From contig VXMJ01000047.1 of assembly GCA_009841145.1 (NCBI GenBank), positions 1 through 33,524 on the forward strand: a stretch of DNA of 33,524 nucleotides. The letters are read 5' to 3'. Of this stretch, positions 10,694-28,685 are shown one piece after another. Below the pieces are notes generated by a model. It made no database searches. It had not been told where the DNA came from and saw only the letters and a program-made list of their open reading frames with translations. Within the stretch, counting starts at the first letter, position 1; the number at the start of each line of letters is the position of its first letter. Source of the DNA: Caldilineaceae bacterium SB0661_bin_34. GTDB taxonomy: Bacteria > Chloroflexota > Anaerolineae > Caldilineales > Caldilineaceae. Both the position numbers and the translations under genes were made by a program.

Positions 10694-11857
10694 CTACACG
10701 GCGTGGACCGTGCCGTGCTCGTGGATGAAATCCCAGTTCAGGTCGTAGCCCAGACCGGGTCGGGTCGGCACGGTGACGTATCCCTCGTCGTCCATGGGAT
10801 CCCCGATCGAATTCAGGTAGGGCGGCACCACCTCGTAGTCGAGGCCCGGGGCCAGCAGGCCCCGTTCGTACCAGCCGCAGGTGTCCTCGCTGCTGGCCCC
10901 CAGCAGGGCCAGGTTGCCGTGGCCGCTCATGTGCACCTCGCAACGGACGCCGAAGCCCTCGCAGATGGCGATCATCTTGTGGCCGCCGGTGATGCCACCC
11001 CGCAGCACGTCGATCCGGCTCATGTCCGAGGCGCCGCGCTTGATCCAGTCGGCCCGCGTGTAGATGGAGCCGTGGGCGATTTCCGGACTTAGAATGGGAA
11101 TGGACAGTTCCCGGCTCAGCTTCTCGTAGTTGGAGACCTGGAACTCGTTCATGGGGTGCTCGTACCAGTAGAAGTCCAGTTCCTCCAGTACCCGGCCCAC
11201 CTTGACCGCCTCCTCGTAGCTGCGGTAGGTGCCCCAGGGATCGAAGCTGAGCACCATGTCCGGCCCCACCGCCTCGCGCACCAGGCGACAGGCCGCGATG
11301 TCCCAATCGATGTGGGACGGCCGTCCCGGGTCCGGTTCACCCGTCGCGGGGTTCCAGAAGTAGTAGGGGTGGATCTTGTAGTGCCGATAGCCGCGGGCCT
11401 GGCACTCCACGGCATGCGACGCGTAGGTCTCGGGCGCTCCGATGTTGGGGAACGTACTGCCGTAGGCCGGCACCTTGTCGCGGCAGCCGCCCAGCAGTTT
11501 GTGCACCGGCACTCCAAACGTCCGTCCCTGCAGGTCCCAGAGCGCGCAGTCCACGGCGCTGAGGATTTCCTCGGGGGTGTTGGACACCCACATCCAGTGC
11601 CAGATGCGTTCCCGGTCGAACGGGTCCTGCCCGACGATCAGCGAGCGGATGCGTCCCAGCATCATGTCGATGTCGTCCGGCCCCAGGCCGTTGCGGTCGC
11701 CGTGCCCCTTGCCGCCGAGGTAGTAGCCCTCGGCCCCTTCATCCGTGTGGATGCGCATCAGGGTCTGGGTCGTGGGTGCATCCGGCACCATCTGCCCTAA
11801 CTGGAAGGCCGACTCCGTCACTTCAAAGGAGATGATCTGCAGGTCGGTGATCTTCAT
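10694..11857 (-). CDS. Mandelate racemase / muconate lactonizing enzyme family protein (enolase superfamily)
   Basis: A 387-residue two-domain enzyme: an N-terminal capping domain (1-130) and a beta/alpha barrel. The Mg-binding carboxylates are visible at the family spacing: Asp206 (SFDPWG), Glu233 (YEHP) and Glu259 (SPEIAHG). A KIH motif at 161-163 and the Asp283/His309 pair (RIDVLRGG, EVHMSGHG) place it with the mandelate racemase subgroup, which removes a proton alpha to a carboxylate. Most such proteins are sugar-acid dehydratases. ATG 11857 is preceded by GAGCGAGG. It is divergent from the PhyH gene. It could supply the dehydratase step missing from the arabinose cluster at 22.9-27.2 kb, but the substrate cannot be read from sequence. 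Confidence 0.88.
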   Translation of the reverse strand: MKITDLQIISFEVTESAFQLGQMVPDAPTTQTLMRIHTDEGAEGYYLGGKGHGDRNGLGPDDIDMMLGRIRSLIVGQDPFDRERIWHWMWVSNTPEEILSAVDCALWDLQGRTFGVPVHKLLGGCRDKVPAYGSTFPNIGAPETYASHAVECQARGYRHYKIHPYYFWNPATGEPDPGRPSHIDWDIAACRLVREAVGPDMVLSFDPWGTYRSYEEAVKVGRVLEELDFYWYEHPMNEFQVSNYEKLSRELSIPILSPEIAHGSIYTRADWIKRGASDMSRIDVLRGGITGGHKMIAICEGFGVRCEVHMSGHGNLALLGASSEDTCGWYERGLLAPGLDYEVVPPYLNSIGDPMDDEGYVTVPTRPGLGYDLNWDFIHEHGTVHAV

Positions 11858-11961
11858 TGGTTGCCTCGCTCCATGCTGCGGATTGGGAAGCTGAATCCTA
11901 CCCGTGCCGCCCGCAGTCCGGGAACAACTCCGGAGCGGCCGTTCAGGCCAATGTTGACCGG

Positions 11962-11970
11962 TGCTATATT
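11962..11970 (+). promoter_or_regulatory. Extended -10 promoter for the PhyH gene
   Basis: TGC immediately precedes TATATT (11965-11970), an extended -10 element about 90 bases upstream of the PhyH start. No good -35 box is seen. Confidence 0.45.
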
Positions 11971-12061
11971 CGGGCTTGCGGGAGGAGACGGGTTGGCGGT
12001 CACCCGGCATCCTCTCCACCCGCCCTCCCATTCAGTCCCAACTTCGTGCAGGACAACCGGC

Positions 12062-12901
12062 ATGCAGGATTTCAACCCGGCAGAACTGGACCACTTCAGG
12101 GAACACGGCTACGTCGTCATCGAGAACGCGGTGGAGGCCATCGGCCTGGACCAAATCCGCGCGGCTTATGAGGAAATCCAGGCGGAGACCGCGCCCGCTT
12201 GGCAGGCCATGGTGGAGTCCGGCGTCATCAAGGGCGGATACGGCCACGGGCCCAATGCCCACACCATGAACAACATCCACAACCACCACGACCTGTGGCT
12301 GGACCTAGCCATGAACCCGCGCATCACGCCGCTGCTCAAGCAGATCACGGGTCCGGATGTCCAAACCATGGAAATGGTCTGCCATTGCCACCATGCCGGC
12401 ACCCAGGCCCACACCGGCTGGCACCGGGACTGGCCGGCCTGGACCCATCCCCAGTACACCCTCAAGACCAAGGCCTTCTACTTCCTGGACGACCAGACCG
12501 AGGACATGGGCTGCTTCTCGCTGGTTCCGGGTTCCCACCACCTGCCGGACGGCCCCCCGCGCGACCGGTACACCGGCAACACCCTGGAGGACATGCCGGG
12601 CCTGAAGAAAATCACGGGTCCCGCCGGAAGCGTGATCGTCTGGAACGTGCTCTGCTGGCACACGGGCCTAGCCAACACGAGCCCGCGCGACCGACGCATC
12701 GTCATCTACGGCTACCAGCCGTTCTGGGTCAAGAAATGGGGCCATGAACCGCCGCCGGAACGAATTGTCAGCTGGGCGAACACGCCGGCGCGCCGCCAGT
12801 TCATGGGGGTTCACGCGATGGAGGGAAGGGCCTCCTGGGATCGCAAGGACGTACCCTATCTGCCGGAACAGCTGGAGCGGCTGAAGACCATCCGCTTCTA
12901 A
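12062..12901 (+). CDS. Phytanoyl-CoA dioxygenase (PhyH) family protein
   Basis: A 279-residue Fe(II)/2-oxoglutarate-dependent oxygenase fold. The facial triad is visible as HRD at 121-123 and His200 in 'VLCWHTGLANTS', with an Arg about 9-11 residues later (209-212) for 2-oxoglutarate. The N terminus 'DHFREHGYVVIENAV' and 'CFSLVPGSHH' are family hallmarks. PhyH proteins hydroxylate many substrates, and this one cannot be assigned to phytanoyl-CoA. The start at 12062 has AGGACA about 8 bases upstream. A small CACCGG-CTT-CCGGTG hairpin begins one base after the stop. The gene is divergent from the enolase-superfamily gene, suggesting shared control and perhaps one pathway. Confidence 0.88.
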   Translation: MQDFNPAELDHFREHGYVVIENAVEAIGLDQIRAAYEEIQAETAPAWQAMVESGVIKGGYGHGPNAHTMNNIHNHHDLWLDLAMNPRITPLLKQITGPDVQTMEMVCHCHHAGTQAHTGWHRDWPAWTHPQYTLKTKAFYFLDDQTEDMGCFSLVPGSHHLPDGPPRDRYTGNTLEDMPGLKKITGPAGSVIVWNVLCWHTGLANTSPRDRRIVIYGYQPFWVKKWGHEPPPERIVSWANTPARRQFMGVHAMEGRASWDRKDVPYLPEQLERLKTIRF

Positions 12902-13128: not shown

Positions 13129-14508
13129 ATGAAAGCCTTTGTCGGATTTTTGGGACGTGAACGCCGACGCTCCTTGTGGGTAATTCTTTTCCTGGCCCTG
13201 GGCCTGTTGTTGTTCCGAACCACAGCGGTTTATGCGGCCCCTGACGATGAAACAGTCTTTGTGCTCAACACATTTGCCTTCCTTATTTGGGGGGCCTTGG
13301 TCATGTGGATGTCGGCCGGCTTCACCATGCTGGAGGCAGGTTCGGTACGCACCAAGAATGCCTCAATGATCTGTCTGAAGAATATCGGCCTTTATTCGAT
13401 TGCGGGGCTGGCCTACTACCTGATTGGCTACAACCTCATGTATGTGGATGTACAGTCGGTCATCGGCCAATTCGGCTTCCTGTATGGACCCACGGCCGAG
13501 GATCTGGCCTTGATGGCCGGCCAGGCGGAATCCACCGCAGCCGTGGTCGCGGGCGGCTATTCCACCCTGTCGGACTGGTTCTTCCAGATGGTCTTTGTGG
13601 CCACGGCCGCGTCGATCGTGTCCGGCGCGCTGGCCGAGAGGGTCAAAATGTGGGCCTTCTTCCTCTTCGTCCTGGTGCTGACCGCCATCATCTACCCCAT
13701 CGTGGGCGCGTGGACCTGGGGTGGCGGCTGGCTGAGCGCCCTGGGCTTCCAGGACTTCGCCGGCTCAACCGTGGTGCACAGTACCGGTGGCTGGGCGGCA
13801 CTGGCGGGCATTCTCGTGGTAGGGCCCCGGTTGGGCAGGTTTCGCCGGGATGGTTCTGTCAAACCGCTACCCCCATCCAACATCCTTGTCGTGACCCTGG
13901 GGGTCTTCATTCTTTGGTTTGGATGGCTCGGTTTCAACGGCGGATCCCAGTTGGCACTGGGCAGCGCCTTGGATGCGGTGGCCATGAGTCAGGTGATTGT
14001 CAATACCAATCTGGCGGCGGCAGCCGGTGTGATCGCGGCCATTCTGGTGTCGCGGCCCATCCTCGGACGAATGGATCTCTTTGCCGGATTGAACGGAGCC
14101 ATTGCCGGACTGGTAGCCATTACCGCGGGACCCGACATCGTGGAACCCTATTGGGCCATCATCATCGGTATCATCGGCGCCGTCCTGTGTACGGCCAGCA
14201 TCAAGTTGCTGGAAATCCTCAAGGTGGACGATGTCGTGGGCGCCGTGCCGGCGCATCTGGGTGCCGGTATCTGGGGCACGCTGGCCACAAGCATCGCGGC
14301 GGGCGCCAATCTGGGCGTGCAATTGATTGGTGTATTGGCTGTTGGCGCATTCGTGTTTGTGCTGTCCTGGCTGCTGTGGACGCTGCTGGACAAGCTCATG
14401 GGCGCCAGGGTGTCCCGGACAGTAGAACAACTGGGTCAGGATGTCGGCGAATTGGGTATCGAGGCCTATCCCGAATTTGTCCTCATGCCGGAAGATTTCG
14501 ACGAATAG
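13129..14508 (+). CDS. amt: Ammonium transporter, Amt/Mep/Rh family
   Basis: A 459-residue membrane protein with a cleavable signal-like N terminus (about 15-37) and about 11 membrane helices. It conducts ammonium across the cytoplasmic membrane for nitrogen assimilation. The signature DFAGSTVVHSTGGWAALAG (209-227) carries Asp209 and His217, and VDDVVGAVPAHLGAG contains His376. The two histidines correspond to the twin-His pair lining the pore (H168/H318 of E. coli AmtB), and the Asp-His spacing of 8 is the same. ATG 13129 is set by a strong AGGAGGT site. No glnK/PII gene follows, which is unusual for amt. An inverted TATCA-CCT-TGATA motif at 13050-13062 upstream could be a regulator site. 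Confidence 0.95.
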   Translation: MKAFVGFLGRERRRSLWVILFLALGLLLFRTTAVYAAPDDETVFVLNTFAFLIWGALVMWMSAGFTMLEAGSVRTKNASMICLKNIGLYSIAGLAYYLIGYNLMYVDVQSVIGQFGFLYGPTAEDLALMAGQAESTAAVVAGGYSTLSDWFFQMVFVATAASIVSGALAERVKMWAFFLFVLVLTAIIYPIVGAWTWGGGWLSALGFQDFAGSTVVHSTGGWAALAGILVVGPRLGRFRRDGSVKPLPPSNILVVTLGVFILWFGWLGFNGGSQLALGSALDAVAMSQVIVNTNLAAAAGVIAAILVSRPILGRMDLFAGLNGAIAGLVAITAGPDIVEPYWAIIIGIIGAVLCTASIKLLEILKVDDVVGAVPAHLGAGIWGTLATSIAAGANLGVQLIGVLAVGAFVFVLSWLLWTLLDKLMGARVSRTVEQLGQDVGELGIEAYPEFVLMPEDFDE

Positions 14509-14741
14509 GAGGGCACGACATCCCGCGCACACGCCTGGAAGCAAACCTGGAAACCAGCTGCCAGCATCCATGACTTCGGAACGTAAACTCCTTCCCACGA
14601 CAGCGCGAGCGGTCCCCATGTGACAGATGCGAATCCGGAACCGGCGTTAACCACAGTTTGGTCGGCACCCGGTCCGCGGCACAACGGCCCCTGTAGCCGG
14701 CCACTTCGGTGGTAACGTTCCATTGCCGAGCCCCCGGCGTG

Positions 14742-15875
14742 TTACTCGGCATCCAGGCTGAACAGTTCCTCCGTGTTCATCAGTGTGGTAAGGATCACGG
14801 GTTCATCCTCGGTGACCAGCGCCAAGTCCTCCAGGTGATACAGGAATCCTTGTGAATCCTTGACTGCAGGCTCGATGTCGATCACCATCCCGGGGAGGAG
14901 CTCGGCTTCGTTGCGGGCGTGCAGGATGGGATGCTCGTGCAGTCCGATGCCCAGGCTGTGCCCAATGGCCTGGCTGGTTAGGGTCAGATCCCGGTCTGCC
15001 AGAGCCTGTTGCGCGCGGAGGTATATTTCGCCGGCCTTGGTCCCGGGGCGCAAGGCTGCGATGGTTTCGCGCTCGCATTCCCGCAGGCGCCGATACACCG
15101 AACGCTGTTCGGCCGAGGCGGAGCCCACCACGGCTGTACGGGCCACATCCGACTGATAGCCATCGAACACCCCGCCCACGTCCACGCGCAGGATTTCCCC
15201 GGCAAGCAGTTGCTTGGCACTCGGTGATGGATGATTGAACGCCGTATTGGCTCCCGCCGCCAACGTGAGCCAGAGCGATTCGGCTCCCTGGCGCAGGACG
15301 TGCGCGGACAGGCGGTCCGCCATTTCCTTTTCCGTATGCCCCGCCTTGGTCTGACGAAACGTGTCAAGGATCGCCTGCTCCGTGTCCAGCCCGGCCTGGG
15401 TTAGGCGAGCCACTTCCGCATCTGTCTTGACAGCCCGCGCCGTATCGAAAACCGGATCTCCGTCAAGCAGAACCGACGCAGGCAGGAGACCGGCCAGCTC
15501 CTCGACATAGGTACTGGCCAGGAAACGCTTCTCAATGCCGATGCGGGCCGTCGCACCGTAGCGCCCGCGAATGAATTGGGCCAACGCCTGCATGGGCGAT
15601 TCCCGATGCTCCAGGTAGATCTCCAGATCCGTGATCCAGGATTCCTCCCGCAGCTGGGCTTCCTCGCTGTAACAGGCCATGATGCCGGGTTCCCGATCCC
15701 GTGCCAGCAGCGCGAAACAGAGTCGTTCTGGAATGATCCGCTGCGAGAGGAGCCAGGCATCGGTGACATAGAAAAAATTCTCCAGGGAAGTGGCCACCAA
15801 CACATCCAAGGCGGCCGCTTCCATGCCTGCATGGAGGCCCTGCAAGTTGATGCGGGAAGGAATTGGATGGGCCAA
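14742..15875 (-). CDS. M24 family metallopeptidase (Xaa-Pro aminopeptidase-like)
   Basis: A 377-residue protein with a creatinase-type N-terminal domain (1-150) and a pita-bread catalytic domain. The five dinuclear metal ligands are all present: Asp232 and Asp243 (VDVGGVFDGYQSD), His306 (GHSLGIGLHEHP), Glu335 (DIEPAV) and Glu349 (YHLEDLALV). This argues for a metal-dependent aminopeptidase or dipeptidase rather than creatinase, which lacks the metal site. The start is a TTG at 15875 with AGGAG about 8 bases upstream. It is the last gene of the minus-strand transporter and enzyme series, 114 bases after the flavoprotein, and probably finishes peptide breakdown. It has no signal peptide, so it is cytoplasmic. 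Confidence 0.9.
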   Translation of the reverse strand: MAHPIPSRINLQGLHAGMEAAALDVLVATSLENFFYVTDAWLLSQRIIPERLCFALLARDREPGIMACYSEEAQLREESWITDLEIYLEHRESPMQALAQFIRGRYGATARIGIEKRFLASTYVEELAGLLPASVLLDGDPVFDTARAVKTDAEVARLTQAGLDTEQAILDTFRQTKAGHTEKEMADRLSAHVLRQGAESLWLTLAAGANTAFNHPSPSAKQLLAGEILRVDVGGVFDGYQSDVARTAVVGSASAEQRSVYRRLRECERETIAALRPGTKAGEIYLRAQQALADRDLTLTSQAIGHSLGIGLHEHPILHARNEAELLPGMVIDIEPAVKDSQGFLYHLEDLALVTEDEPVILTTLMNTEELFSLDAE

Positions 15876-15989
15876 GGGTGAACTCCTAGATGATGAGGAC
15901 CGTCGAATGCACGGCTGTGCGGCTACGGGTGACGGAATGCGCCGGCCCTTCCGGTGTTCATCGGGCGCGGGAGAACGGGCTGCTGTCCC

Positions 15990-17144
15990 TTAGTTCTTCA
16001 GGGTGAGGTTCCGCTCCGGCTGCAGGCCCAGGGCGCGAATGTCTAGACCCGGTGTTTCCCCAAGCGCCAGCTGGACCAGCAACTCGCCGAGCAGAGGCGT
16101 GAACTTGAAGCCATGGCCGGAGAGACCGGCTCCAATGATGACGTTGGGAACTTCGGGATGCCTGTCGATAATGAAGTCGTCATCGGGCGTATTGGTATAG
16201 AGACAGGTCTCGGTGTGGACGTGTTGCCATCCGCGATTTGGAAAAAGAGCCTCCACCCAATCCTGCAGTCTTGCTTTCGTTTCCGCATCCGGGCTGCGAT
16301 CCACCTCGTTGGGGTCGGTGAAGTCCCCCCAGTTGTCATCGGCCACGTTCAATATGCCGCGCCACACCGGAAAGCCGTAGTAGTTCAGGTCGTAGTCGGT
16401 GTACACCGGCACCTGGTCCGGGTGCAGATCCGCGACATCGGAACTGCGGAAGTGGAACTTCTGTTGCCGCGTAACCTTGAGAGCCAGTTGCAGGTCCGGA
16501 AGCAGCGAGGCGGTCCAGGAGCCTCCGGTGCAGATCAGGCGCCGGCACAGAATCCGGTGGTCAGGGGTGGTGATTTCCAAGCGGCCGTCCCGCGGATTCA
16601 ACCCGGTCACCGTTTGTTCCTCCCAGGCATCCGCGCCAGCCTTGCGAGCCTCGGCAACAAGGATGGACAAGGCATAAGTGGGTTCCAGGAAGCCTGCCCT
16701 GGGGACCCAGCATGCAACTGAGCCCGCCGGCAGCTGCATCATGGGGAACTGCCGGGCCACTTGGTCCCGGGTCAGCACGTCATGATCTTCCCGTGATTCC
16801 TGAAGGGCCTTTAGGCTTTCCTGAAACTTTGCATTGTCAGGCTGTGCAATGACCAGTTGCCCGCAAAGACGCAGCAGCGGCGTCTGGGTTCTCCGTTCCA
16901 ATTCCTGCCATTGGGCCTGAGCCGTCCGGGCCATTTGGACATAGAGCGGGTTGGTATAGAAGGGTCGGAACACGCGACTGGGGCCATGCGTGCTGCCCCG
17001 GTCATGGCCCAGCCGAAACTGTTCGATTCCCAGCGCCGGAACCCCTCGCAGGGCCAAGTGATACAGCGCCGCGCTGCCCATGGCCCCCAGGCCCAGAACC
17101 ACGGTGTCGGTTTCATGTAAGGCCATGGGCATTGCTCTCGGCAT
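15990..17144 (-). CDS. FAD-dependent amine oxidase, monomeric sarcosine oxidase / N-methyl amino acid oxidase type
   Basis: A DAO-fold flavoprotein of 384 residues. The N-terminal dinucleotide site is GLGAMG (18-23) followed by 'GIEQFRLGHDRGSTHG', as in MSOX and SolA. The C-terminal block TCLYTNTPDDDFIIDRHP contains Cys314, in the position of the cysteine that holds FAD covalently in monomeric sarcosine oxidase, and 'GAGLSGHGFKFTPLLGELL' follows. Such enzymes oxidise N-methyl or other secondary amino acids, giving formaldehyde and H2O2. Three consecutive ATG codons lie next to GGAG; I chose the third (17144), which has the best spacing. It lies between the zinc hydrolase and the M24 peptidase genes. 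The true substrate (sarcosine, N-methyl-Trp, pipecolate, proline-like) is open. Confidence 0.87.
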   Translation of the reverse strand: MPRAMPMALHETDTVVLGLGAMGSAALYHLALRGVPALGIEQFRLGHDRGSTHGPSRVFRPFYTNPLYVQMARTAQAQWQELERRTQTPLLRLCGQLVIAQPDNAKFQESLKALQESREDHDVLTRDQVARQFPMMQLPAGSVACWVPRAGFLEPTYALSILVAEARKAGADAWEEQTVTGLNPRDGRLEITTPDHRILCRRLICTGGSWTASLLPDLQLALKVTRQQKFHFRSSDVADLHPDQVPVYTDYDLNYYGFPVWRGILNVADDNWGDFTDPNEVDRSPDAETKARLQDWVEALFPNRGWQHVHTETCLYTNTPDDDFIIDRHPEVPNVIIGAGLSGHGFKFTPLLGELLVQLALGETPGLDIRALGLQPERNLTLKN

Positions 17145-17247
17145 CATCATCTCCGTGTCCGCGTCAGCTCGTCCAACCTTGGGAGGCAAGGGTCCCAAGA
17201 TCCCACAGTCCAGCGGACTGCGGCTTTGAGACGTGCAAGTACAGCTT

Positions 17248-17266
17248 ATGTCATATGTCTTATGTC
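17248..17266. repeat. Three ATGTC units at 7-bp spacing
   Basis: ATGTC occurs at 17248, 17255 and 17262 in an A/T-rich patch that crosses the stop codon of the zinc hydrolase gene (17260-17262). It could be slippage or a small protein-binding site. Confidence 0.6.
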
Positions 17267-18267
17267 TTCATCTTCAGTACATAGATCAGGCACTCGCCCA
17301 TCAGGACCTTGGGAATAGTCCGCAGAAACATCACCCGTCCGGACTCCACGGCCGGTATCTCCGCCAGAACAGTTCCGTCGGGATGGCGCACCTCGCCCAG
17401 AATATCCCCCTCGGAGACGACATCCCAGAGTTCCACCGCGGGCACGAAGAGCCCCGAGTAGGGACTGGGGTAGTTCACCTGCAAGTGGCCTGCCTCCTCC
17501 CCCAGCGTCTGCAGGCTGAACTCGGGTTCAGCGGTGGGAAAGTCGCCTTCCACAATGCCCAGGAACGCCAGGATGTTACGAATGCCCTGCACTGCGTAGG
17601 TGCGCTGGGCGGAGCGCAGCCTGCCTTCGCCGCGATTCTCCACGTAAATGGCGGGTACCCCCTTGATGCGGGCCGCGGACAGAGTGCGTCCCGGCAGGGC
17701 CTCCGTGCCCCAGACAAAGTCGAACCCGAAAGCGATGGCGGCCTCGTGCAGGCGTTCCCCGGCCGGGCCGCCCTGCACCTGATAGCCGGCCAGTTCCTTG
17801 CAGGCGTACAGGTTGCCGCCGGCATGCATCTCGAGCAGGAAGTCGGCTTGGACCACCAGATGCTCCTGAAAGATATGCGCAATGCGTTCCGTGGGGGAAC
17901 CCTGGGCAGCACCGGGGAAGATGCGGGCCAGATTCAGATGGTCCCAGCCCCCTTCCCGGGTGCCATGGGCAAAGGCGGGTCCATTCACCATGGGAATGCC
18001 AAAGAACGTGCCGCGCATGTCGGCCGTGTCCAATTCCGCGAAGACATCCTGTATGGCCACCGGACCTTCGTATTCGTCTCCATGCACCAACCCCGTCACC
18101 ATGCAGACGGGCCCCGGGTTATCGCCGCGGGCGAGCAGGACGGGACAATAGAGCGGTTCGCCCGAGGGCAGGGTGTTCAGGATCAAGTGCAGGCGGGTCT
18201 TGGTTCCCTCCGCAAAGTCGGCAACCCTGAAATCGGAATAAAGAATGGGCTGGGCTTCCGTTAACAT
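17260..18267 (-). CDS. Succinylglutamate desuccinylase / aspartoacylase family zinc hydrolase
   Basis: A 335-residue M14-like (AstE/AspA) enzyme. The zinc ligands are His62 and Glu65 in 'GLVHGDEYEG' and His148 in 'LLEMHAGGN'; 'DHLNLARIFPG' (109-119) is a family signature. The last ~90 residues form a beta-rich lobe typical of these proteins. Relatives remove acyl groups from N-acyl amino acids or act as carboxypeptidases. ATG 18267 has a strong GGAGGT six bases upstream. It lies 69 bases downstream of dppC and is expected to process the transporter's substrate in the cytoplasm, since no signal peptide is present. Confidence 0.87.
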   Translation of the reverse strand: MLTEAQPILYSDFRVADFAEGTKTRLHLILNTLPSGEPLYCPVLLARGDNPGPVCMVTGLVHGDEYEGPVAIQDVFAELDTADMRGTFFGIPMVNGPAFAHGTREGGWDHLNLARIFPGAAQGSPTERIAHIFQEHLVVQADFLLEMHAGGNLYACKELAGYQVQGGPAGERLHEAAIAFGFDFVWGTEALPGRTLSAARIKGVPAIYVENRGEGRLRSAQRTYAVQGIRNILAFLGIVEGDFPTAEPEFSLQTLGEEAGHLQVNYPSPYSGLFVPAVELWDVVSEGDILGEVRHPDGTVLAEIPAVESGRVMFLRTIPKVLMGECLIYVLKMKT

Positions 18268-18336
18268 CGGTTTACCTCCGTGTGGCGATGATTCGGCCAG
18301 GCGTGTGCGGCGGTGTCGGGGGCTGCGGCCCGGGTC

Positions 18337-19272
18337 CTACAGATTGTTTCCTTGGTTCGCCATGGTGGGATCAAGTACATCGCGCAAGGCATCCGCCAGG
18401 CTGTTGAGGCCAAGAATCAGGGATGTGATGAACAGGCCCGGAAAGAATCCGTACCACCAGGCACGACGCAGATGGCCGCGCCCGCTCAGCAGCATGGCTC
18501 CCCACGAGGCGTCGGGCGGTTGCGTGCCCAACCCGAGGAAGCTGAGGGCTGCTTCCACCAGGATGGCGAACGCCACGGCCAGCGTGAGCTGTACGAGGAG
18601 GGGGGCCAGCGAGTTGGGCAGCACGGTGCGGAAGATGATGCGACGGGCAGTGGCTCCGACCGCCTGAGCCGCCAGCACGAAGTCCATTTCCTTCTGCACA
18701 AGAATGCTGGCCCGGGCCAGACGGGCAAATCCCGGCAGTCCCACGATGGCGACGGCGATCATGGCATTGACCGAACCCGGTCCCAGCACGGCCACGATGG
18801 TCAGAGCCAACAGGAGCGCTGGGAACGCCAGCAGCGTATCGATGCACCGCATGATAACCGCATCGAGCCCGCGTCCCGCGTAACCACTGACAAGCCCCAA
18901 GGGCACTCCCAGAACGGCGGCGGTGAGGGCCGCAACCGTTCCGGCCAGCAGGGATATGCGTCCCGCGTGCAGGGTGCGCGTATAGATGTCGCGTCCAAAT
19001 TCGTCCGTGCCGAAGAAATGGACCGCGCTGGGCGGCAGAAACTGGTTGCCTTTGCTGATGGCCAGGGGATCGTGGGTGGAGAGGAGGGGGGCCGCCACGG
19101 AGATGAAGAACATGGCCAGAACCACCACCAGGCCCACCACTCCTCCCCGATGCCGAAGGAACCGATGCCACAATCGGGACTGCGCGGGCTGCTCCGGCAA
19201 GTCCCAAGGCTGAACGGCCTCATCGCCGCGGGTTGCGCGGTCCTTGGCGGTCTCACTCGACGACATGGTCAT
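18337..19272 (-). CDS. ABC transporter permease, DppC type
   Basis: A 311-residue inner-membrane permease of the peptide/nickel (Dpp/Opp) class. An N-terminal cytoplasmic stretch is followed by a first helix (GGVVGLVVVLAMFFISVAAP) and the OppC-type 'HFFGTDEFGRDIYTRTLHAGRISL' segment. About five more helices follow, then the EAA coupling loop 'AAQAVGATARRIIFRTVLPN' that docks with the ATPase, and a final 'ASWGAMLLSGRG' loop. The start is uncertain: ATG 19272 is chosen, ATG 19266 and TTG 19305 are alternatives, and none has a good ribosome binding site. It follows dppB after about 40 bases and forms a heterodimer with it. Confidence 0.9.
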   Translation of the reverse strand: MTMSSSETAKDRATRGDEAVQPWDLPEQPAQSRLWHRFLRHRGGVVGLVVVLAMFFISVAAPLLSTHDPLAISKGNQFLPPSAVHFFGTDEFGRDIYTRTLHAGRISLLAGTVAALTAAVLGVPLGLVSGYAGRGLDAVIMRCIDTLLAFPALLLALTIVAVLGPGSVNAMIAVAIVGLPGFARLARASILVQKEMDFVLAAQAVGATARRIIFRTVLPNSLAPLLVQLTLAVAFAILVEAALSFLGLGTQPPDASWGAMLLSGRGHLRRAWWYGFFPGLFITSLILGLNSLADALRDVLDPTMANQGNNL

Positions 19273-19314
19273 GGACGAAGGGTATGGCAGGTCCTGCCCC
19301 CGCAAGAAACCGGA

Positions 19315-20259
19315 TCACTGATAGCGAATCCGCGGGTCAAGAAAGCCGTAGGTCAGATCCGTAATCAGTGTCACGCAGACGAATGTGGTCACGATAAACA
19401 GGACGGTGCCCTGCAGGACCGGATAGTCCCGTGTCCCTATCGCCTGCAGCATGAGTCGGCCCAGACCGGGCCAGTCGAAGATGGACTCGGTGACGACGGC
19501 CCCGCCCAGGAACGCACCCAGCTGCAGACCCAAAATGGTCACAACGGGAATTAGCGCATTCTTCAATACATGGCGCGTCAGGACGCCGGTTTCCGCCAAA
19601 CCCTTGGCGCGCGCCGTACGCACGTAATCCATCTCCATCACTTCCAGCATGGAGCTCTTGAGGAAGCGGGTCAGCACCGTGGCGGAATAGAAGCCGAGCG
19701 TTAGGGAAGGCAGGATCATCAGGCGCAGCGCCAGTCCCGGCTTCTGGCTGAATGCCACTTGACCGGAAGGTGGCAGCCACTTGAGTTGCAGGGAAAATAC
19801 CAGCACCAGCAAAATGCCCAGCCAGAAAGTAGGAATGGCCTGTCCCAGGGCAACCACCAGCGATGTCAGGCGCTCAAACCAGCCGCCTCGCCGGACTGAC
19901 GACAGGATGCCCAGCGGCAGGGATATGCAGAGGGCAACCAGCAATCCGCCGGCCGTCAGCTGCAAGGTGGCCAGGAATTTCCGCGTAATCAAGTCGAAGA
20001 CGGGGTATCCATTCAGGATGGAAACGCCCAGATCTCCTCGCACGATCTGCCCCAGCCAGATCGCATACTGCACATGGATGGGCTTGTCCAGCCCAAGGCG
20101 GGCACGGGCGGCCACGATCTGCTCCGGCAACGCGTCGGGTCCGGCGATCAACATGGCCGGATCGCCGGGAATGAAGCGAACCAAGCCGAATACCAGGATG
20201 GAACTCAGAAAGAGCACCGGCAGCGTTTGCACCAGCCGCCGCAAGGCGTAAACGACCAC
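19315..20259 (-). CDS. ABC transporter permease, DppB type
   Basis: A 314-residue permease with six predicted membrane helices. It starts with the typical 'YALRRLVQTLPVLFLSSILVF' helix and 'RFIPGDPA' motif, contains the periplasmic 'LGLDKPIHVQYAIWLGQIV' segment, and has the EAA loop 'TARAKGLAETGVLTRHVLKN' for ATPase docking. It ends with 'LTDLTYGFLDPRIRY'-type sequence, as usual for DppB/OppB. The start is GTG 20259 without a clear ribosome binding site. It is separated from the binding-protein gene by a 187-base spacer containing two strong hairpins. No ATP-binding subunit lies nearby, so ATPases must be shared or encoded elsewhere. Confidence 0.92.
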   Translation of the reverse strand: MVVYALRRLVQTLPVLFLSSILVFGLVRFIPGDPAMLIAGPDALPEQIVAARARLGLDKPIHVQYAIWLGQIVRGDLGVSILNGYPVFDLITRKFLATLQLTAGGLLVALCISLPLGILSSVRRGGWFERLTSLVVALGQAIPTFWLGILLVLVFSLQLKWLPPSGQVAFSQKPGLALRLMILPSLTLGFYSATVLTRFLKSSMLEVMEMDYVRTARAKGLAETGVLTRHVLKNALIPVVTILGLQLGAFLGGAVVTESIFDWPGLGRLMLQAIGTRDYPVLQGTVLFIVTTFVCVTLITDLTYGFLDPRIRYQ

Positions 20260-20332
20260 GGGAAATCACAAACGGACGGGATGCCCGGAACCGATGCGGT
20301 CCTCGACCCGCGAGGCCGGTGCGGCACGGACA

Positions 20333-20368
20333 TCCGAGGCTCCGCTCCTCACGGAGTAGAGCCTCGGA
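20333..20368 (-). other. Intercistronic stem-loop B (binding protein / permease spacer)
   Basis: TCCGAGGCTC (20333-20342) pairs exactly with GAGCCTCGGA (20359-20368), and an inner CTCC/GGAG stem closes on a TCAC loop. No T-run follows on the transcribed strand, so an mRNA-stabilising or attenuating role fits better than a simple terminator. Confidence 0.75.
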
Positions 20369-20381
20369 CTTGCTCTCGATT

Positions 20382-20414
20382 GGGCGGGCAGCGCCTTGAG
20401 GCACCAGCCCGCCC
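20382..20414 (-). other. Intercistronic stem-loop A, just after the binding-protein gene
   Basis: GGGCGGGC (20382-20389) pairs with GCCCGCCC (20407-20414), enclosing an inner GCC-TTGA-GGC hairpin. It begins about 33 bases after the binding-protein stop codon. It could protect the upstream mRNA from 3' degradation and lower permease expression, as is known for the malE-malF spacer. Confidence 0.7.
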
Positions 20415-20446
20415 GAAAGCGGGATCTGCGCGGAAGAACCGGAGTT

Positions 20447-22081
20447 CTACTCAACCCAAGTATTGCCCGCAATCAGCTCGTCGTTGACAGTCCAATCCAA
20501 GCCGTGGACATTGGCCTGGCGGGCGAACAGCGTGTACTTCCAGGAGATCGGAATGTCGATGCATGAGTCCAGCATGATCTCGCCGACTTGCCGGAAGGCA
20601 TCCCGCCGTGTTTCGCGATCAAAGGTGGAACCGGCAATCGCCAGCTGCTCCACATAGCCCTCCGGGAAATCACCATGCGGGAAGATGGGGCTGGAGCGGG
20701 GACGGAACGGGCTGTTGTCGAACAGCCCCATGGGATCCAAATGCTGCCTGCCCACAAACGTGACGTCGAGGTCGAACACCGCGCTGCCGTTGGTCTCGGG
20801 GGTGCCGAGGTGCCGCGGGCCATAGGTGGCACTGTCCAGCGGTTCCACATCAATTTCCACCCCGATCGTGGCCATGTCGGCTTCCAGGATGGTGCCGATG
20901 TCCGTGGTCTCCGGGAACGCCTGAATCGTAATCGTGTTCAGGACCAGCTTGACGCCGTCCTTGTCCCGGACTCCGTCACCGTCGGTGTCCACCCAGCCGG
21001 CCTCGTCCAGCAAGGCGGCCGCGGCATCCAGATCGAAGCTGTAGTGATCGGCCAGCTCCTCGAAGTAGGCCACCGAGTAATCGGGGAACGGAACCACCGT
21101 GGCCCCGCCCACACCAAACAGGGCCTGATCCACGATGGCATCCCGGTCAATGGACCAGCACACCGCCTGTCGCACCCGCTTGTCGCTGAGCGCTCCCTCC
21201 GGCTGATCCGGGTCCGGGGGATTCACCGTGATGGAATAGAGCAAACCGCCCTGTCCGAATTCGACGGCGATGCCGGCATCCAACAGACGCTGGTAGTCCT
21301 TGGGCGGAATCGCGATGGCGGCATCGATGATCCCGGTCTCCAGAGCCGTGACCAGGGCTTCCAGGTCATCGAAGGGCTTGAAGGAAACCTCGTCCAGGTA
21401 GGGACGACCTTCTTCCCAGTAGTCTTCGTTGCGGGTAAAGGTCAGGACATCGCCCGGGATCCACTCCTTGAGCTTGAAGGGGCCCGTGCCGATGCAGGAA
21501 TTGGCCAAGGAATCGAAGGACTCCGGCGCCATGATGCGCATCACGTTCAGGATGTCGAACATGTTGGGCGTCGGCGCGGCGAAATCGATCGTGACGCTGT
21601 GATCCCCGTTGGCCGTGGCTCCCGTCACCGTCTGCACCATGCCGTGCACGTTGGAACCCGTGTCCGGAACCAGGGCCCGGTCGATGTTTTGGACTACGTC
21701 GTCCGCCACGAAGGCCCGGCCGTTGTGCCAGACCACGTCGTCGCGCAGCGTCAAGGTGACGGATGTGCCCTCCGCGTTGGTCTCCCAGGCCGTGGCCAGG
21801 CGCGGCATGATGTTCAGTCGCTTGTCGTAGAGAATCAAGCTGTCATAGCACTGATTCTGCATGGGATAACTGACGAAGCCGAGCGAGAACGCGTCGAAGT
21901 TGATGATGTCGTCCGTCGTGCCCACCACCAGGGTGCCGCCGGTCTGGGGGCCCTCCTCCATGTCACTGGCCATCTCCTCGGCCGGAGGAGCAGGGGCACA
22001 AGCAACGCTGGCGACGGCCAAGGCCAGCAGGAGAGCCGCCAACAGGCCGATTCGCAATGGACTCAGGTGTTTATAAGCCAT
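20447..22081 (-). CDS. Solute-binding lipoprotein of peptide-type ABC importer (SBP family 5)
   Basis: A 544-residue SBP_bac_5 lipoprotein. Residues 10-27 form the signal peptide and Cys28 (SVAC) is the predicted lipidation site, followed by an Ala/Pro/Glu-rich linker to about 47. The mature protein shows 'GGTLVVGTTDDIINFDAF', 'VTLTLRDDVVWHNGRAF', 'IGTGPFKLKEWIPGDVLTF' and 'RVRQAVCWSIDRDAIVD', plus a 'DTDGDGVRDKDG' acidic loop, all typical of Dpp/Opp binding proteins. It captures the substrate outside the membrane for DppB/DppC. ATG 22081 is preceded by GAGGTGA. As first gene of the series it has its own promoter at 22221 and a structured leader. The ligand is unknown; the downstream enzymes suggest an N-substituted peptide or amino acid derivative. 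Confidence 0.92.
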   Translation of the reverse strand: MAYKHLSPLRIGLLAALLLALAVASVACAPAPPAEEMASDMEEGPQTGGTLVVGTTDDIINFDAFSLGFVSYPMQNQCYDSLILYDKRLNIMPRLATAWETNAEGTSVTLTLRDDVVWHNGRAFVADDVVQNIDRALVPDTGSNVHGMVQTVTGATANGDHSVTIDFAAPTPNMFDILNVMRIMAPESFDSLANSCIGTGPFKLKEWIPGDVLTFTRNEDYWEEGRPYLDEVSFKPFDDLEALVTALETGIIDAAIAIPPKDYQRLLDAGIAVEFGQGGLLYSITVNPPDPDQPEGALSDKRVRQAVCWSIDRDAIVDQALFGVGGATVVPFPDYSVAYFEELADHYSFDLDAAAALLDEAGWVDTDGDGVRDKDGVKLVLNTITIQAFPETTDIGTILEADMATIGVEIDVEPLDSATYGPRHLGTPETNGSAVFDLDVTFVGRQHLDPMGLFDNSPFRPRSSPIFPHGDFPEGYVEQLAIAGSTFDRETRRDAFRQVGEIMLDSCIDIPISWKYTLFARQANVHGLDWTVNDELIAGNTWVE

Positions 22082-22157
22082 GGTTCATTCACCTCGCCGA
22101 AGTACTGGAATTGATTCGATCGAAGCAGCATTCCTCTTCGCTGCACGATACCCCTGC

Positions 22158-22183
22158 GCTGCGGTCCACCGACGAACCGCAGC
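22158..22183 (-). other. Leader hairpin of the binding-protein mRNA
   Basis: GCTGCGGT and ACCGCAGC form a perfect 8-bp stem with a 10-base loop, lying between the predicted transcription start (near 22214) and the start codon at 22081. Confidence 0.5.
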
Positions 22184-22220
22184 CATGGGGGCAGACCAGT
22201 TGGGTTTTCGGCAGGGGTCG

Positions 22221-22229
22221 ATTGTATCA
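22221..22229 (-). promoter_or_regulatory. Extended -10 promoter for the transporter and enzyme series
   Basis: Read on the minus strand: TGA followed by TACAAT, the same TGATACAAT seen at the initiator tRNA promoter. No good -35 box is visible, as is usual for extended -10 promoters. The leader would be about 130 bases. Confidence 0.55.
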
Positions 22230-22889
22230 GTGCGCGTCGCGCGCCCGACGCGGGGCCGGAGAGCTGCCAAGGCGCACAGTACCGGAAGTCCGCCTGCGGC
22301 CCAGGGAATCTCATTCCAATAGGGGCGGCACCTGCGGAAAGCGGCAGGACCTCCATGCCGTAGGGACGCATGGAGACTGCTCACCGCACGGGCTGGTACC
22401 CGCCGGAGCCCTGTTGGGGAACAGTGATCAGCCACTGACAGACCACCGAGTGCCGAAGTCGCGGGTGGAAACCACGCCGACTGCAGTTCGCATGAACCGA
22501 GGAAGTCTGTCGCGACACCGGAACCGGGCTGGTTCCAGCATTGCAGGCCTTGGGACAACGGCCCCGCCGCACCTGTCGTCAGTTGACGTTGCGGTGACCG
22601 AAGCGACCGGTTGCGCGGTCGCGCCCGATCAGGAACTCGGGCGGTGAAATTGGGGCTTGAAGTTCCGCGACGACGGATTGCGAAACGGTCCTATCCGCAC
22701 CTGTGGGATTCGGCATGTGCACAGGGGGCTCCGATGGCACGGATTCGGCACAAGTCGTTGCCCCGCGCTTGGTCTTCACCATGCATGCTCCAACCAAGCC
22801 ACAGAAAGACCGTCATACCAATTGGCGTAAGGCCAATGTACTGAATCCAACACGCCAATCGGATGCCCGCCAGAGAGCATGCCGGGTTC
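22230..22889. other. 660-base region without a recognised gene
   Basis: Short open frames exist on both strands, but none resembles a known family or has a good start site. The clearest structure is an inverted repeat CTCCATGC/GCATGGAG (22351-22358 and 22368-22375, 9-base loop), next to a smaller CCTGC/GCAGG one. It lies upstream of the transporter promoter and downstream of the aldolase gene, so it may hold regulator sites or decayed sequence. Confidence 0.5.
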
Positions 22890-23645
22890 TCAGCCCGGGA
22901 TTGCAGTGTCCCTGTTGACCTTGACAAACTCCCTTCCGGCCGACAGCAGCATCTCCGCCTGGTCCGTCTCGACAAAGTAATCCCAGGACATGCGCTTGCC
23001 GGCAGCCCGCGTGCGCGCCTCGATGTCGGCATGCACCCGAGCCACCTCCGGGTGATCCGCACCCTCGCCGGGCAAGCCAAGCGAATAGGCCAAGTCAAAG
23101 GCCCCATAGGCAATGCCGTCCAGACCTTCGACCGCCAGGATGTCATCCAGATTCTCATAGCCGGTCTTGGACTCGACCTGGACCAGAACCAGCATGTTCT
23201 CGTTGGCGAACTCAGCGAAACCGCGGCGGTTGCCGTAGCCCGCCTCCAACAACCCATCGTCGTTGAACTCCGTGCCGCGTCCTCCCCCCCAGGACCGATG
23301 GCCAAGGGGGCCGAAGTAGCAGGCGTTCACCAACGCTTGTGCCTGTTCCCCGGTCTCGATGTGGGGCGCCATGATGCCCTGAAGCCCCCGGTCCAGCCAG
23401 CGGTTGATCTCGTCCGCACTGTGGTTGGGCACCCGGGCCTTGACCGTCAGGCCGTGGGCATGGGCGACCGACACGATCCGGTCCACCTCGACCGGACTGT
23501 ACGCACCGTGCTCGCCGTCCAGGCTCACGCAGTCGAAGCCGGACAGGGCGGCCAGTTCAATCCAGAACGGCTCGGCCGATGCCAGCCGGACGGACAAAGC
23601 CTTGCGGCCTTCCCGATTGCACTTGAAGATCGTGTTCTCAAACAT
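22890..23645 (-). CDS. HpcH/HpaI family aldolase
   Basis: A 251-residue class II pyruvate aldolase. The active-site residues line up with those of E. coli HpcH: Asp43 and His46 (LDGEHG), Arg71 (ARVPN), Glu158 (QVESKTG) and Asp184 (GAFDL). The last two bind the divalent metal that holds the pyruvate enolate. Members cleave 2-keto-3-deoxy sugar acids or 4-hydroxy-2-oxo acids to pyruvate and an aldehyde. Two adjacent ATG codons follow GAGGAGG; the second (23645) has workable spacing, whereas the first is only one base away. It lies 19 bases downstream of the GH127 gene, which favours a sugar-acid substrate such as 2-keto-3-deoxy-arabonate. Confidence 0.88.
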   Translation of the reverse strand: MFENTIFKCNREGRKALSVRLASAEPFWIELAALSGFDCVSLDGEHGAYSPVEVDRIVSVAHAHGLTVKARVPNHSADEINRWLDRGLQGIMAPHIETGEQAQALVNACYFGPLGHRSWGGGRGTEFNDDGLLEAGYGNRRGFAEFANENMLVLVQVESKTGYENLDDILAVEGLDGIAYGAFDLAYSLGLPGEGADHPEVARVHADIEARTRAAGKRMSWDYFVETDQAEMLLSAGREFVKVNRDTAIPG

Positions 23646-23664
23646 CATGCCTCCTCAGTAGACC

Positions 23665-25545
23665 TCAGGCAACGCCGCAGGGAATCCAGACTTCCATGGC
23701 TCCGGGACCCCGATTGGCCCAGGCATAGTACGGAACCGCCACCAAGGTGCGTTCCCGGCTCGATTCAGGCAGGGGCCAGGTTTGATACAGGGAATCGGAC
23801 CAAGTCTCCGGCTCGGCAGCCCAGCCGCGGGCCGTGACCTTGTGGACACCATCCAGCAGACTGGCCTCAAACATGTCATCCAGCGGAGCTTGGGGATCGA
23901 TGCACAGGTCCCCCGACCGTTCCATGCCTTCGTTGTCCACCGCCTCGAGGCAGTACACCAGCGGCCCCCGTTCAATAACCACTGCACCGCGGGCGGCATC
24001 GACGCGGGGATTGGCCACGGTCAGGCGGGGCGACATGTCGAGCTGCAGGGTGAGCCGATCGCCGGCCTGCCACACACGCCGAAGGACGCGGTATCCCGTC
24101 CTGCCCTCCGACGACCCGGCTTCGTCCCAGTTCCCGTCCACGCGAGCCCGGCCGCGCGACCACCCAGGCTCGCGCAAGCCGATATCGAACTCGTCCCCCG
24201 ACGCCTCCAACACCGTGACCACAATCTCCCCGTCGTGGGGGTATCCGGTCTCCACCCGCAGGCGGCAGCGGCCGAAATCCCCGGCACATGTGAACTCGCC
24301 GTCCACGTACTGATGCAGTTGCACCCCTCGGCTGTTGGTGGTCAGGCCGTAGTGGGCAATCAGTTCCACCAACCGCATCAGGTTGGGAGGACAGCAGGCG
24401 CATTCGTACCAGGAAGGCCGCTCGATGCCACCGGGACTGGACAGCGGGTTCTCATAGAAGTAACGGGACCCGTCCAGGGACACGCCGGACAGGACACTGT
24501 TGTACAGCGAACGCTCCAGCATGTCCGCATACTTCGACTCGCCGGTGGCCAGGAGCAGACGCCAGTTCCACATCACGTTGGCGATCGCGGCACAGGTCTC
24601 GCAGTACGTGGTGTCGTTGGGCAGTTCATAGGCCTCTCCGAACGCTTCGCCGAAGTGGCGCGCGCCGGCACCGCCGGTCACATGCAGTTTGCGGGTCGCC
24701 AGGTCCCGCCAAAGCCGGTCCAGGGCTGCCCAAAGGCCCTCGTTCCCGGTCTCCAGATATATGTCCGTCATGCCCGAGGTCAGGTAGAGCTGCCGGACGG
24801 CATGCCCTTCCAGCTCCTCCGCGTCGTACACCGACACCCGGTCCTGGTAGTACCCGTCGCTGAACATCTTGGGGCCAATCAGCGAGCCCTGGCCGCGGCG
24901 TCCCAGGAAGAACAGGGCCAGTTGGGCATAGCGGGTCTCGCAGGTCTCGCGGGCCAGTTCGACCAGGGCCAGTTCGATCTCCGGGTGTCCCGGCGGGCCG
25001 TCGTGACGGCCGGGTCCGAACTCCCGATCGATGAGATCCGCAAACTTGATGGCGATGTCGAGCAGGCTCCGGTCTCCGGTGCCCCGGTGGTAGGCAATCG
25101 CCGCCTCGAACAGGTGGCCGGCGCAGTAGAGTTCGTGCCCGTGCGCCAGCTCGAGCCACTTCAGGTCGGGCTTCAACACCTGGTAGTAGGAATTCAGGTA
25201 CCCGTCGGGCTCCTGGGTCCGGGCCAACAGCCCGATGGCATATTCAGCCTTGGCCTGCAAACCCGCGTCGGGTTCGTTGGCCAGGGCACAGCCCACGGCC
25301 TCGAGCCACTTGTAGATGTCCGAGTCCAAGAACAGGGGCTCGCGGTAGGAGCCCTCGCCCTCGCCAATCGCCAGCTTCAGGTTGTTGAAGTTGCCCGAGG
25401 CCTCAAGCTTCTCGAAGGCATGGTTCAGACTCGACTTGCGATTGACGGACTGTCTCTGCGACCAGAATCCGCCGACCACCTTGGCGTCCGTCAACGCCAA
25501 CGTGCGGTATTCCGTGAACTCGCTGGCCGATGTATCTACGTGCAC
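23665..25545 (-). CDS. GH127 family glycoside hydrolase (beta-L-arabinofuranosidase, former DUF1680)
   Basis: A 626-residue enzyme with an (alpha/alpha)6 barrel and C-terminal beta domains. The diagnostic zinc/cysteine site of GH127 is present: Glu316 and Cys318 in YCETCAA, and Cys384-Cys385 in ECACCPPN, matching E338, C340, C417 and C418 of the Bifidobacterium enzyme HypBA1, in which a cysteine is the nucleophile. No signal peptide is seen, so it probably acts on imported oligosaccharides. The start is GTG 25545, six bases after a GGGGG stretch. It lies between the semialdehyde dehydrogenase and aldolase genes and so would feed released L-arabinose, or a related sugar, into the following steps. 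Confidence 0.88.
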   Translation of the reverse strand: MHVDTSASEFTEYRTLALTDAKVVGGFWSQRQSVNRKSSLNHAFEKLEASGNFNNLKLAIGEGEGSYREPLFLDSDIYKWLEAVGCALANEPDAGLQAKAEYAIGLLARTQEPDGYLNSYYQVLKPDLKWLELAHGHELYCAGHLFEAAIAYHRGTGDRSLLDIAIKFADLIDREFGPGRHDGPPGHPEIELALVELARETCETRYAQLALFFLGRRGQGSLIGPKMFSDGYYQDRVSVYDAEELEGHAVRQLYLTSGMTDIYLETGNEGLWAALDRLWRDLATRKLHVTGGAGARHFGEAFGEAYELPNDTTYCETCAAIANVMWNWRLLLATGESKYADMLERSLYNSVLSGVSLDGSRYFYENPLSSPGGIERPSWYECACCPPNLMRLVELIAHYGLTTNSRGVQLHQYVDGEFTCAGDFGRCRLRVETGYPHDGEIVVTVLEASGDEFDIGLREPGWSRGRARVDGNWDEAGSSEGRTGYRVLRRVWQAGDRLTLQLDMSPRLTVANPRVDAARGAVVIERGPLVYCLEAVDNEGMERSGDLCIDPQAPLDDMFEASLLDGVHKVTARGWAAEPETWSDSLYQTWPLPESSRERTLVAVPYYAWANRGPGAMEVWIPCGVA

Positions 25546-25652
25546 AGGATGCCCCCGTCAATATGTTGGTGAATTGCCCTTGGCCGACACGCGGGCCGGT
25601 TTCTTCAGTTCCTTGCGCGAAGCTATCTTTGCCCGATAAGCACGCAACCCGT

Positions 25653-27987: not shown

Positions 27988-28279
27988 CTACTTGCCAGGC
28001 TCCGTGCGGCTGTTTTGCCGCAGGCGGGGGAGCCTTCCCACGGCCTGATCCCGCATCAAGTCGGCGATCGCGGGGAAGCAGTCGGAGGCCGCGCCGTCCA
28101 ATTGCTGCGCGAACCGTGCCGCCTCGTCGTCGCTCCAGAATTCAGCAACAAACTGCACGAGGATCCTCTTTTCGCCCCGTGCTTCGCCGAGTTTCAAGCC
28201 CCGTGCCTCGCCTTCCTTTTCCTTGGCCGCAATGATGTTGCCGAATGTGTTCATGATCACCTCCGCCTCTTCAATGTAG
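27988..28279. repeat. Diverged direct repeat, copy A (partner at 28406-28685)
   Basis: 292 bases corresponding to 280 bases at 28406-28685, estimated by eye at roughly 85% identity. The length difference is one 12-base in-frame insertion in copy A. The repeat begins at the stop codons and weak similarity may extend beyond them. Confidence 0.85.
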
Positions 28280-28296
28280 GAAGTGCTGCGCAACAT
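27988..28296 (-). pseudogene. Duplicated 3' fragment of the adjacent Rpn-family gene
   Basis: The 102-residue frame is a diverged copy of the last ~95 residues of the neighbouring gene at 28406-29443. The two stop codons are exactly 418 bases apart, and similarity runs from the stop through the 'YIEEAEVIMNTFGNIIAAKEKEGEARG' region, ending near 28279. The copy carries an in-frame 12-base insertion (GLKL) inside the EARG repeat. The nuclease domain is absent. It keeps an open frame and its own ATG, so a small product is conceivable, but a remnant of a tandem duplication or partial deletion is likelier. Confidence 0.75.
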
Positions 28297-28405: not shown

Positions 28406-28685
28406 CTACTTGTCGGGACCGGCACGGCCGTTTTCCCGCAGGCGGGGGAGCTGTCCTCCGGCCTGGTTTCGCATCAGGTCGGCGATCGTGGGGAATTGGC
28501 TGGGGTCCGCACTGTCCAGTTGCTGCGCGAACCGGGCCGCCTCGTCGTCGCCCCAGAATTCAGCAACGAACTGCACGAGGATCCTCTTTTCGCCCCGTGC
28601 TTCGCCCCGTGCCTCACCTTCCTTTTCCTTGGCCGCAATGATGTTGCCGAATGTGTTCATGACTATCTCCGCCTCTTCAATGTAG
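28406..28685. repeat. Diverged direct repeat, copy B
   Basis: Partner of 27988-28279; forms the 3' end of the intact Rpn-family gene. Confidence 0.85.

Follow-up and report, generated by a model that had tools for sequence, protein, structure and literature searches.

A genus-restricted importer and amide-processing gene block in a Caldilineaceae-like Chloroflexota, with a sarcosine-oxidase-fold enzyme carrying asparagine at the oxygen-activating lysine position

We characterized a block of six same-strand genes that combines a peptide-type importer with a zinc deacylase, an M24 metallopeptidase and a flavoenzyme of the sarcosine oxidase fold. The flavoenzyme has asparagine at the position where monomeric sarcosine oxidase (MSOX) has its oxygen-activating lysine. 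In our tentative reading, held with slightly less than even confidence, the block is a catabolic cassette specific to this genus, with a small peptide-like amide as its substrate, and the flavoenzyme would work mainly as a dehydrogenase or slow oxidase. This reading builds on what was observed of gene content, gene order, conservation within the genus, purifying selection and residue states. The window analysed here is the whole stretch of 33,524 nucleotides. It forms contig C7 of a Caldilineaceae-like Chloroflexota MAG of 4.34 Mb and 98% completeness, whose genus is probably sponge-associated.

Architecture of the gene block

An earlier note on this DNA had reported six same-strand genes at 14742-22081. 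All six open reading frames were confirmed at these coordinates on the minus strand, and the family label given to each was upheld by Pfam/NCBIfam-type domain and model matches. The features are as follows.

22082..22432, minus strand: conserved region 5' of the SBP gene, probable promoter/leader, where synteny with G400 and L007 ends
20447..22081, minus strand: family-5 solute-binding (SBP5) lipoprotein (SBP_bac_5, E 4.6e-75)
19315..20259, minus strand: OppB-type permease (BPD_transp_1 and its N-terminal domain)
18337..19305, minus strand: OppC-type permease (BPD_transp_1 and OppC_N)
17260..18267, minus strand: AstE/AspA-family zinc N-deacylase, DoeB-like (AstE_AspA_cat, E 1.5e-19)
15990..17198, minus strand: MSOX/MTOX-family FAD amine oxidase or dehydrogenase (DAO, E 8.5e-49)
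16347..16349, minus strand: codon AAC, Asn284 of the flavoenzyme, aligned with MSOX Lys265
16203..16205, minus strand: codon TGT, Cys332 of the flavoenzyme, aligned with the covalent-FAD Cys315 of MSOX
14742..15875, minus strand: M24 metallopeptidase, prolidase/aminopeptidase P-like (Peptidase_M24, E 1.8e-40, and Creatinase_N)

In the direction of transcription, the genes follow one another as SBP5, OppB, OppC, deacylase, DAO and M24, with intergenic gaps of 187, 9, 69, 61 and 114 bp. A consensus scan for promoters and terminators found sites no commoner than in shuffled sequence.

Conservation within the genus and limits of the block

Close orthologues of the deacylase (96-98% identity) are confined, among 46 genomes of the order, to the four genomes of the window genus. 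The scan of genome contigs for related loci returned four loci with deacylases 96-98% identical, and its patterns reach close relatives only. In the genus genome G400, the six genes are intact and in identical order, at 88-97% protein identity. G402 has all six genes on two contigs, whereas G401 has five: one IS605/TnpB-type element separates its deacylase and DAO genes, and another follows DAO; no M24 orthologue was found in the G401 assembly at E<=1e-45. The two elements lie at 11592-12777 and 14141-15484 of locus L041 with DAO between them, and the first is seemingly split over frames. Because G401 tolerates an insertion element inside the block and no M24 gene was found there, the six genes are not all indispensable together. 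Conservation of the block as a unit, a check suggested in the earlier note, is borne out by G400 and limited by the interruption in G401 and the contig break in G402. Among the order genomes examined, the complete block is confined to the window genus. Plasmid-collection searches gave many relatives for each enzyme among the best 60 records per query, and the six-gene block was absent from 13 annotated regions of these records among the matches listed.

Across the genus, dN/dS ranges from 0.05 to 0.21 for the six block genes, indicating purifying selection. The DAO and M24 genes evolve faster than the remaining four, and the DAO values, 0.19-0.21, are the highest in the block, which is compatible with a changing or relaxed function. 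Since the gene order is intact in G400 and dN/dS is low across the genus, the grouping of the six genes goes beyond chance adjacency. These data also bear on a looser arrangement, in which the importer and deacylase genes form a four-gene unit while DAO and M24 are a second, adjoining unit with unrelated substrates. We consider this unlikely: the six genes are intact and on the same strand in both the window genome (G000) and G400, the deacylase-DAO gap is only 61 bp, and relatives of DAO and of M24 independently adjoin SBP5 importers. The looser arrangement draws its support from G401 and G402, where the interruption or break falls precisely at the deacylase-DAO junction, from the faster evolution of DAO and M24, and from loci L044 and L098, where a deacylase and importer occur without DAO or M24.

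Homology to G400 and to locus L007 stops at ~22432, a point 351 bp upstream of the start of the SBP gene, and this marks one edge of the block. Further upstream, at 22890-27227 on the minus strand, genes for an HpcH/HpaI aldolase, a GH127 beta-L-arabinofuranosidase and an aldehyde dehydrogenase lie in a row; the G400 homology ends before these genes, and the block is therefore independent of them. Downstream, synteny with G400 extends to ~8716. A MAG labelled Acidobacteria carries a related fragment, at 96-97% identity, that may be misbinned.

The flavoenzyme and the oxygen-activating lysine

The DAO gene product scores 313 bits against the NCBIfam model of N-methyl-L-tryptophan oxidase, over the cut-off of 257. 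Among solved structures, it matches sarcosine oxidase 7exs (E 7.5e-57), with an alignment that spans the length of the flavoenzyme, and N-methyltryptophan oxidase 2uzz (E 2.1e-35). The TTG listed as its start probably lies too far upstream, and an ATG at 17126 is the likelier start. The enzyme shares with MSOX/MTOX the fold family, the covalent-FAD cysteine (Cys332, MSOX C315), which is kept in all four genus genomes, and the carboxylate-binding arginine and lysine (Arg78 and Lys365, MSOX Arg52 and Lys348). The equivalent of MSOX R49 is also kept. However, the position of MSOX Lys265 is occupied by Asn284, with asparagine in 4/4 genus genomes and lysine in 24/24 homologues outside the genus (comparison sets of 14 and 10). 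The alignment at this position is unambiguous, reading LNVADD in the window and LKVADD in the nearest relatives. A further difference from MSOX/MTOX, aspartate at the position of His269, is shared with the g226 relatives described below.

Lys265 of monomeric sarcosine oxidase is the published site of oxygen activation, and the K265M substitution lowers oxidase activity (PMC7312611); the residue also has a role in the oxygen path/proton relay of this enzyme (PMC5459902). The earlier note had suggested that the gene set could release H2O2. Because the oxygen-activating lysine is asparagine in the whole genus, this suggestion is now doubtful, and H2O2 release probably plays no major part here. 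The predicted loss of oxygen reactivity would hinge on a single residue, and another residue could compensate. The replacement of lysine by asparagine in an enzyme of this fold parallels, in nature, a mutation known from laboratory work and gives a clear prediction on oxygen reactivity.

Formaldehyde, the other product that had been proposed, would be released only from an N-methyl substrate. Our search for formaldehyde oxidation genes elsewhere in the genome, a check suggested in the earlier note, covered two models, of which formate-tetrahydrofolate ligase (FTHFS) had no match and class III formaldehyde dehydrogenase none over the cut-off. These results, together with the asparagine shared across the genus, count against a true N-methyl amino acid oxidase that would act on an N-methylated peptide and yield formaldehyde and H2O2. 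We regard such an activity as improbable, even though the protein exceeds the N-methyl-L-tryptophan oxidase cut-off and retains the carboxylate and FAD-linking residues of the active site.

The deacylase and the M24 peptidase

Both hydrolases have complete catalytic sites. In the deacylase, the zinc ligands H62, E65 and H148 (HxxE...H site) are present, as are R115, at the substrate-binding position of the NxxR motif, and E210, which aligns with the general base; orthologues likewise keep the zinc site. In the M24 protein, all five metal ligands are found (D232, D243, H306, E335 and E349), and the five-ligand site is also complete in the G400 and G402 orthologues. The metal ligands and two conserved histidines are shared with prolidase/aminopeptidase P (M24B, e.g. 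PepQ), and the nearest solved structure is the proline dipeptidase 5cdl; the protein is nevertheless distant from solved members and aligns with them over part of its length only. Another locus of the same genome (L161, positions 9072-15556 of contig C67) runs OppB, SBP5, an M24 paralogue, SBP5 and OppC; this paralogue is without several metal ligands.

Together, the M24-fold protein and the AstE/AspA-family deacylase recall DoeA/DoeB (EutD/EutE) of ectoine degradation and raise the possibility of an ectoine-like catabolism, in which M24 would be a DoeA-type ring hydrolase and the deacylase would be DoeB, acting on a cyclic compatible solute. DoeB is the only NCBIfam match of the deacylase, the DoeB structures 6twl/6twm are among the solved structures nearest to it, doeA and doeB are adjacent in known clusters, and locus L044 pairs a deacylase with an aminotransferase, as DoeB is paired with DoeD. 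However, the deacylase, at 111.5 bits, stays far under the DoeB cut-off of 402.7, and the M24 protein 24.2 bits against a cut-off of 613 for the DoeA equivalog. Furthermore, two annotated DoeA proteins have none of the five metal ligands (0/5) that are all present in the window M24 (5/5), a review reports ectoine consumers in Proteobacteria only (PMC5924519), the importer is not of the EhuABCD type, and the third enzyme is a different one. Residues, scores and importer type therefore disfavour ectoine catabolism, and we judge it very unlikely.

A creatine or guanidino module, in which M24 would be a creatinase that frees sarcosine or an analogue for oxidation by the MSOX-like enzyme, is also highly improbable. 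Creatinase is a metal-free enzyme of the M24 fold that feeds sarcosine oxidase in an established pathway, and the nearest M24 relatives, in locus L205, adjoin a creatininase-family gene. In contrast to the metal-free creatinase, the window M24 has its dinuclear metal site complete. Proline dipeptidases are the solved proteins nearest to it, and no creatininase is encoded within the block. The complete metal site and the prolidase-like relatives thus disfavour this module.

The importer

The SBP has a signal peptide with a lipobox-like ...VASVACAP, and its nearest solved structure by sequence is the oligopeptide-binding protein AppA (1xoc, E 2e-38). The best NCBIfam match of the OppB-type permease is Opp2B, at 331 bits and under the cut-off of 350, and the OppC-type permease, listed with a TTG start, may truly begin at a downstream ATG, e.g. 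MTMSSS. The SBP_bac_5 lipoprotein and the OppB- and OppC-type permeases resemble the Dpp/Opp/App family-5 peptide importers. However, the block differs from them in being without DppD/DppF ATPases, and the permeases and the SBP all score under the specific NCBIfam equivalog cut-offs. The ligands of SBP5 proteins also include, among others, nickel chelates, glycans and opines, and peptide uptake is for this reason a class-level guess.

No ABC ATPase gene lies within the six-gene block. The genome has 33 oligo_HPY matches (32 full and one fragment), none of them on contig C7, and at least a dozen of its SBP5 genes have no oligo_HPY ATPase nearby by coordinate comparison. As so many SBP5 genes stand apart from an ATPase, the coordinates make shared ATPases plausible, and it is plausible that the block importer uses ATPases encoded elsewhere in the genome. 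A second SBP_bac_5 gene of the window, at 6289-7977 on the plus strand, has no adjoining Opp permease gene. For the SBP and DAO proteins, AlphaFold models built from shallow alignments had a mean pLDDT of 33, too poor to use.

Related gene sets

The enzymes of the block also occur in other settings. In the Caldilineaceae genus g226, loci L120 and L122, read gene by gene, have the cluster BKACE-DAO-M19 dipeptidase-OppB-permease-like-SBP5. This cassette resembles the block in its importer type, in a DAO relative at 43-45% identity and in the presence of a peptidase, but it differs in having M19 in place of M24, no AstE/AspA deacylase, and a DAO that keeps the oxygen lysine. A third g226 locus, L121, has BKACE and DAO with other neighbours, and the g226 DAO relatives are 40-45% identical to the window flavoenzyme overall. 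For M24, locus L205, from another family, reads M24-SBP5-OppB-OppC-AstE/AspA-like-creatininase-M24-M24, locus L206 reads M24-SBP5-OppB-RidA-M24-M24, and the g47 genomes read (L204, L207) have M24 alone. For the deacylase, locus L036 has SBP5-OppB-OppC-deacylase divergent from deacylase-deacylase-M24, locus L044 has a deacylase relative with SBP5-OppB-OppC and a class IV aminotransferase, and Azospirillum has deacylase-SBP-permeases-ATPases-D-aminoacylase. For the majority of the remaining deacylase relatives in the order, the stretch read contains no importer of this kind.

Scattering of the enzymes among relatives, which the earlier note had named as a point against a joint function, was found in part: relatives of each enzyme sit in other gene sets, yet an importer of the SBP5/OppBC type recurs as their neighbour. 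Because the parts recur beside this importer type in differing mixtures elsewhere in the phylum, sequence comparison lends support to the block being one version of a modular class of uptake-and-catabolism cassettes rather than one fixed pathway. SBP5 importers and amide-processing enzymes without an assigned substrate are very numerous in Chloroflexota. The comparison reveals a reusable pattern in which deacylases, peptidases and amine-processing enzymes are exchanged around one type of importer, so that gene context can narrow their substrates.

Proposed function

The import and dismantling of a peptide-like compound, as first suggested, remains plausible, given that the catalytic residues of the hydrolases are complete and the binding residues of the oxidase are kept; the release of H2O2 as originally stated is not supported. 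For the amide-catabolizing cassette that we prefer, we infer the substrate, the order of steps and the electron acceptor as follows. The SBP5 lipoprotein and the OppB/OppC permeases would import the compound, powered by the ATPases encoded elsewhere, and the AstE/AspA zinc enzyme would strip its N-acyl cap in the cytoplasm. As its prolidase/aminopeptidase P relatives suggest, M24 may then cleave an Xaa-imino bond, i.e. one to proline or to an N-alkyl amino acid. The flavoenzyme, judging from its fold and its carboxylate and FAD-linking residues, would oxidise the freed secondary amino acid at the C-N bond to an imine, which would be hydrolysed. The flavin would be reoxidised mainly by an acceptor other than O2, as befits a dehydrogenase or slow oxidase; another acceptor is expected because the oxygen-activating lysine is asparagine. 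A bolder version is doubtful: that the block is a dedicated pathway of a sponge-associated genus for an N-acylated, imino-containing natural product or peptide from the dissolved organic matter of the host, with a sarcosine-oxidase fold turned into a native dehydrogenase through loss of the lysine.

Other features of the window

At 93-1016 on the plus strand, an ORF combines a RecG-type HATPase domain with two matched Fic-like C-terminal stretches, apparently from an internal duplication. A YhgA-like putative transposase ORF, just under the Pfam cut-off, lies at 28406-29443 on the minus strand, and the C-terminal sequence of a neighbouring short ORF (27988-28296, minus strand) is similar to it. 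At the contig end, 33096-33524 on the plus strand may be the start of a TnpB-like gene, by a weak match.
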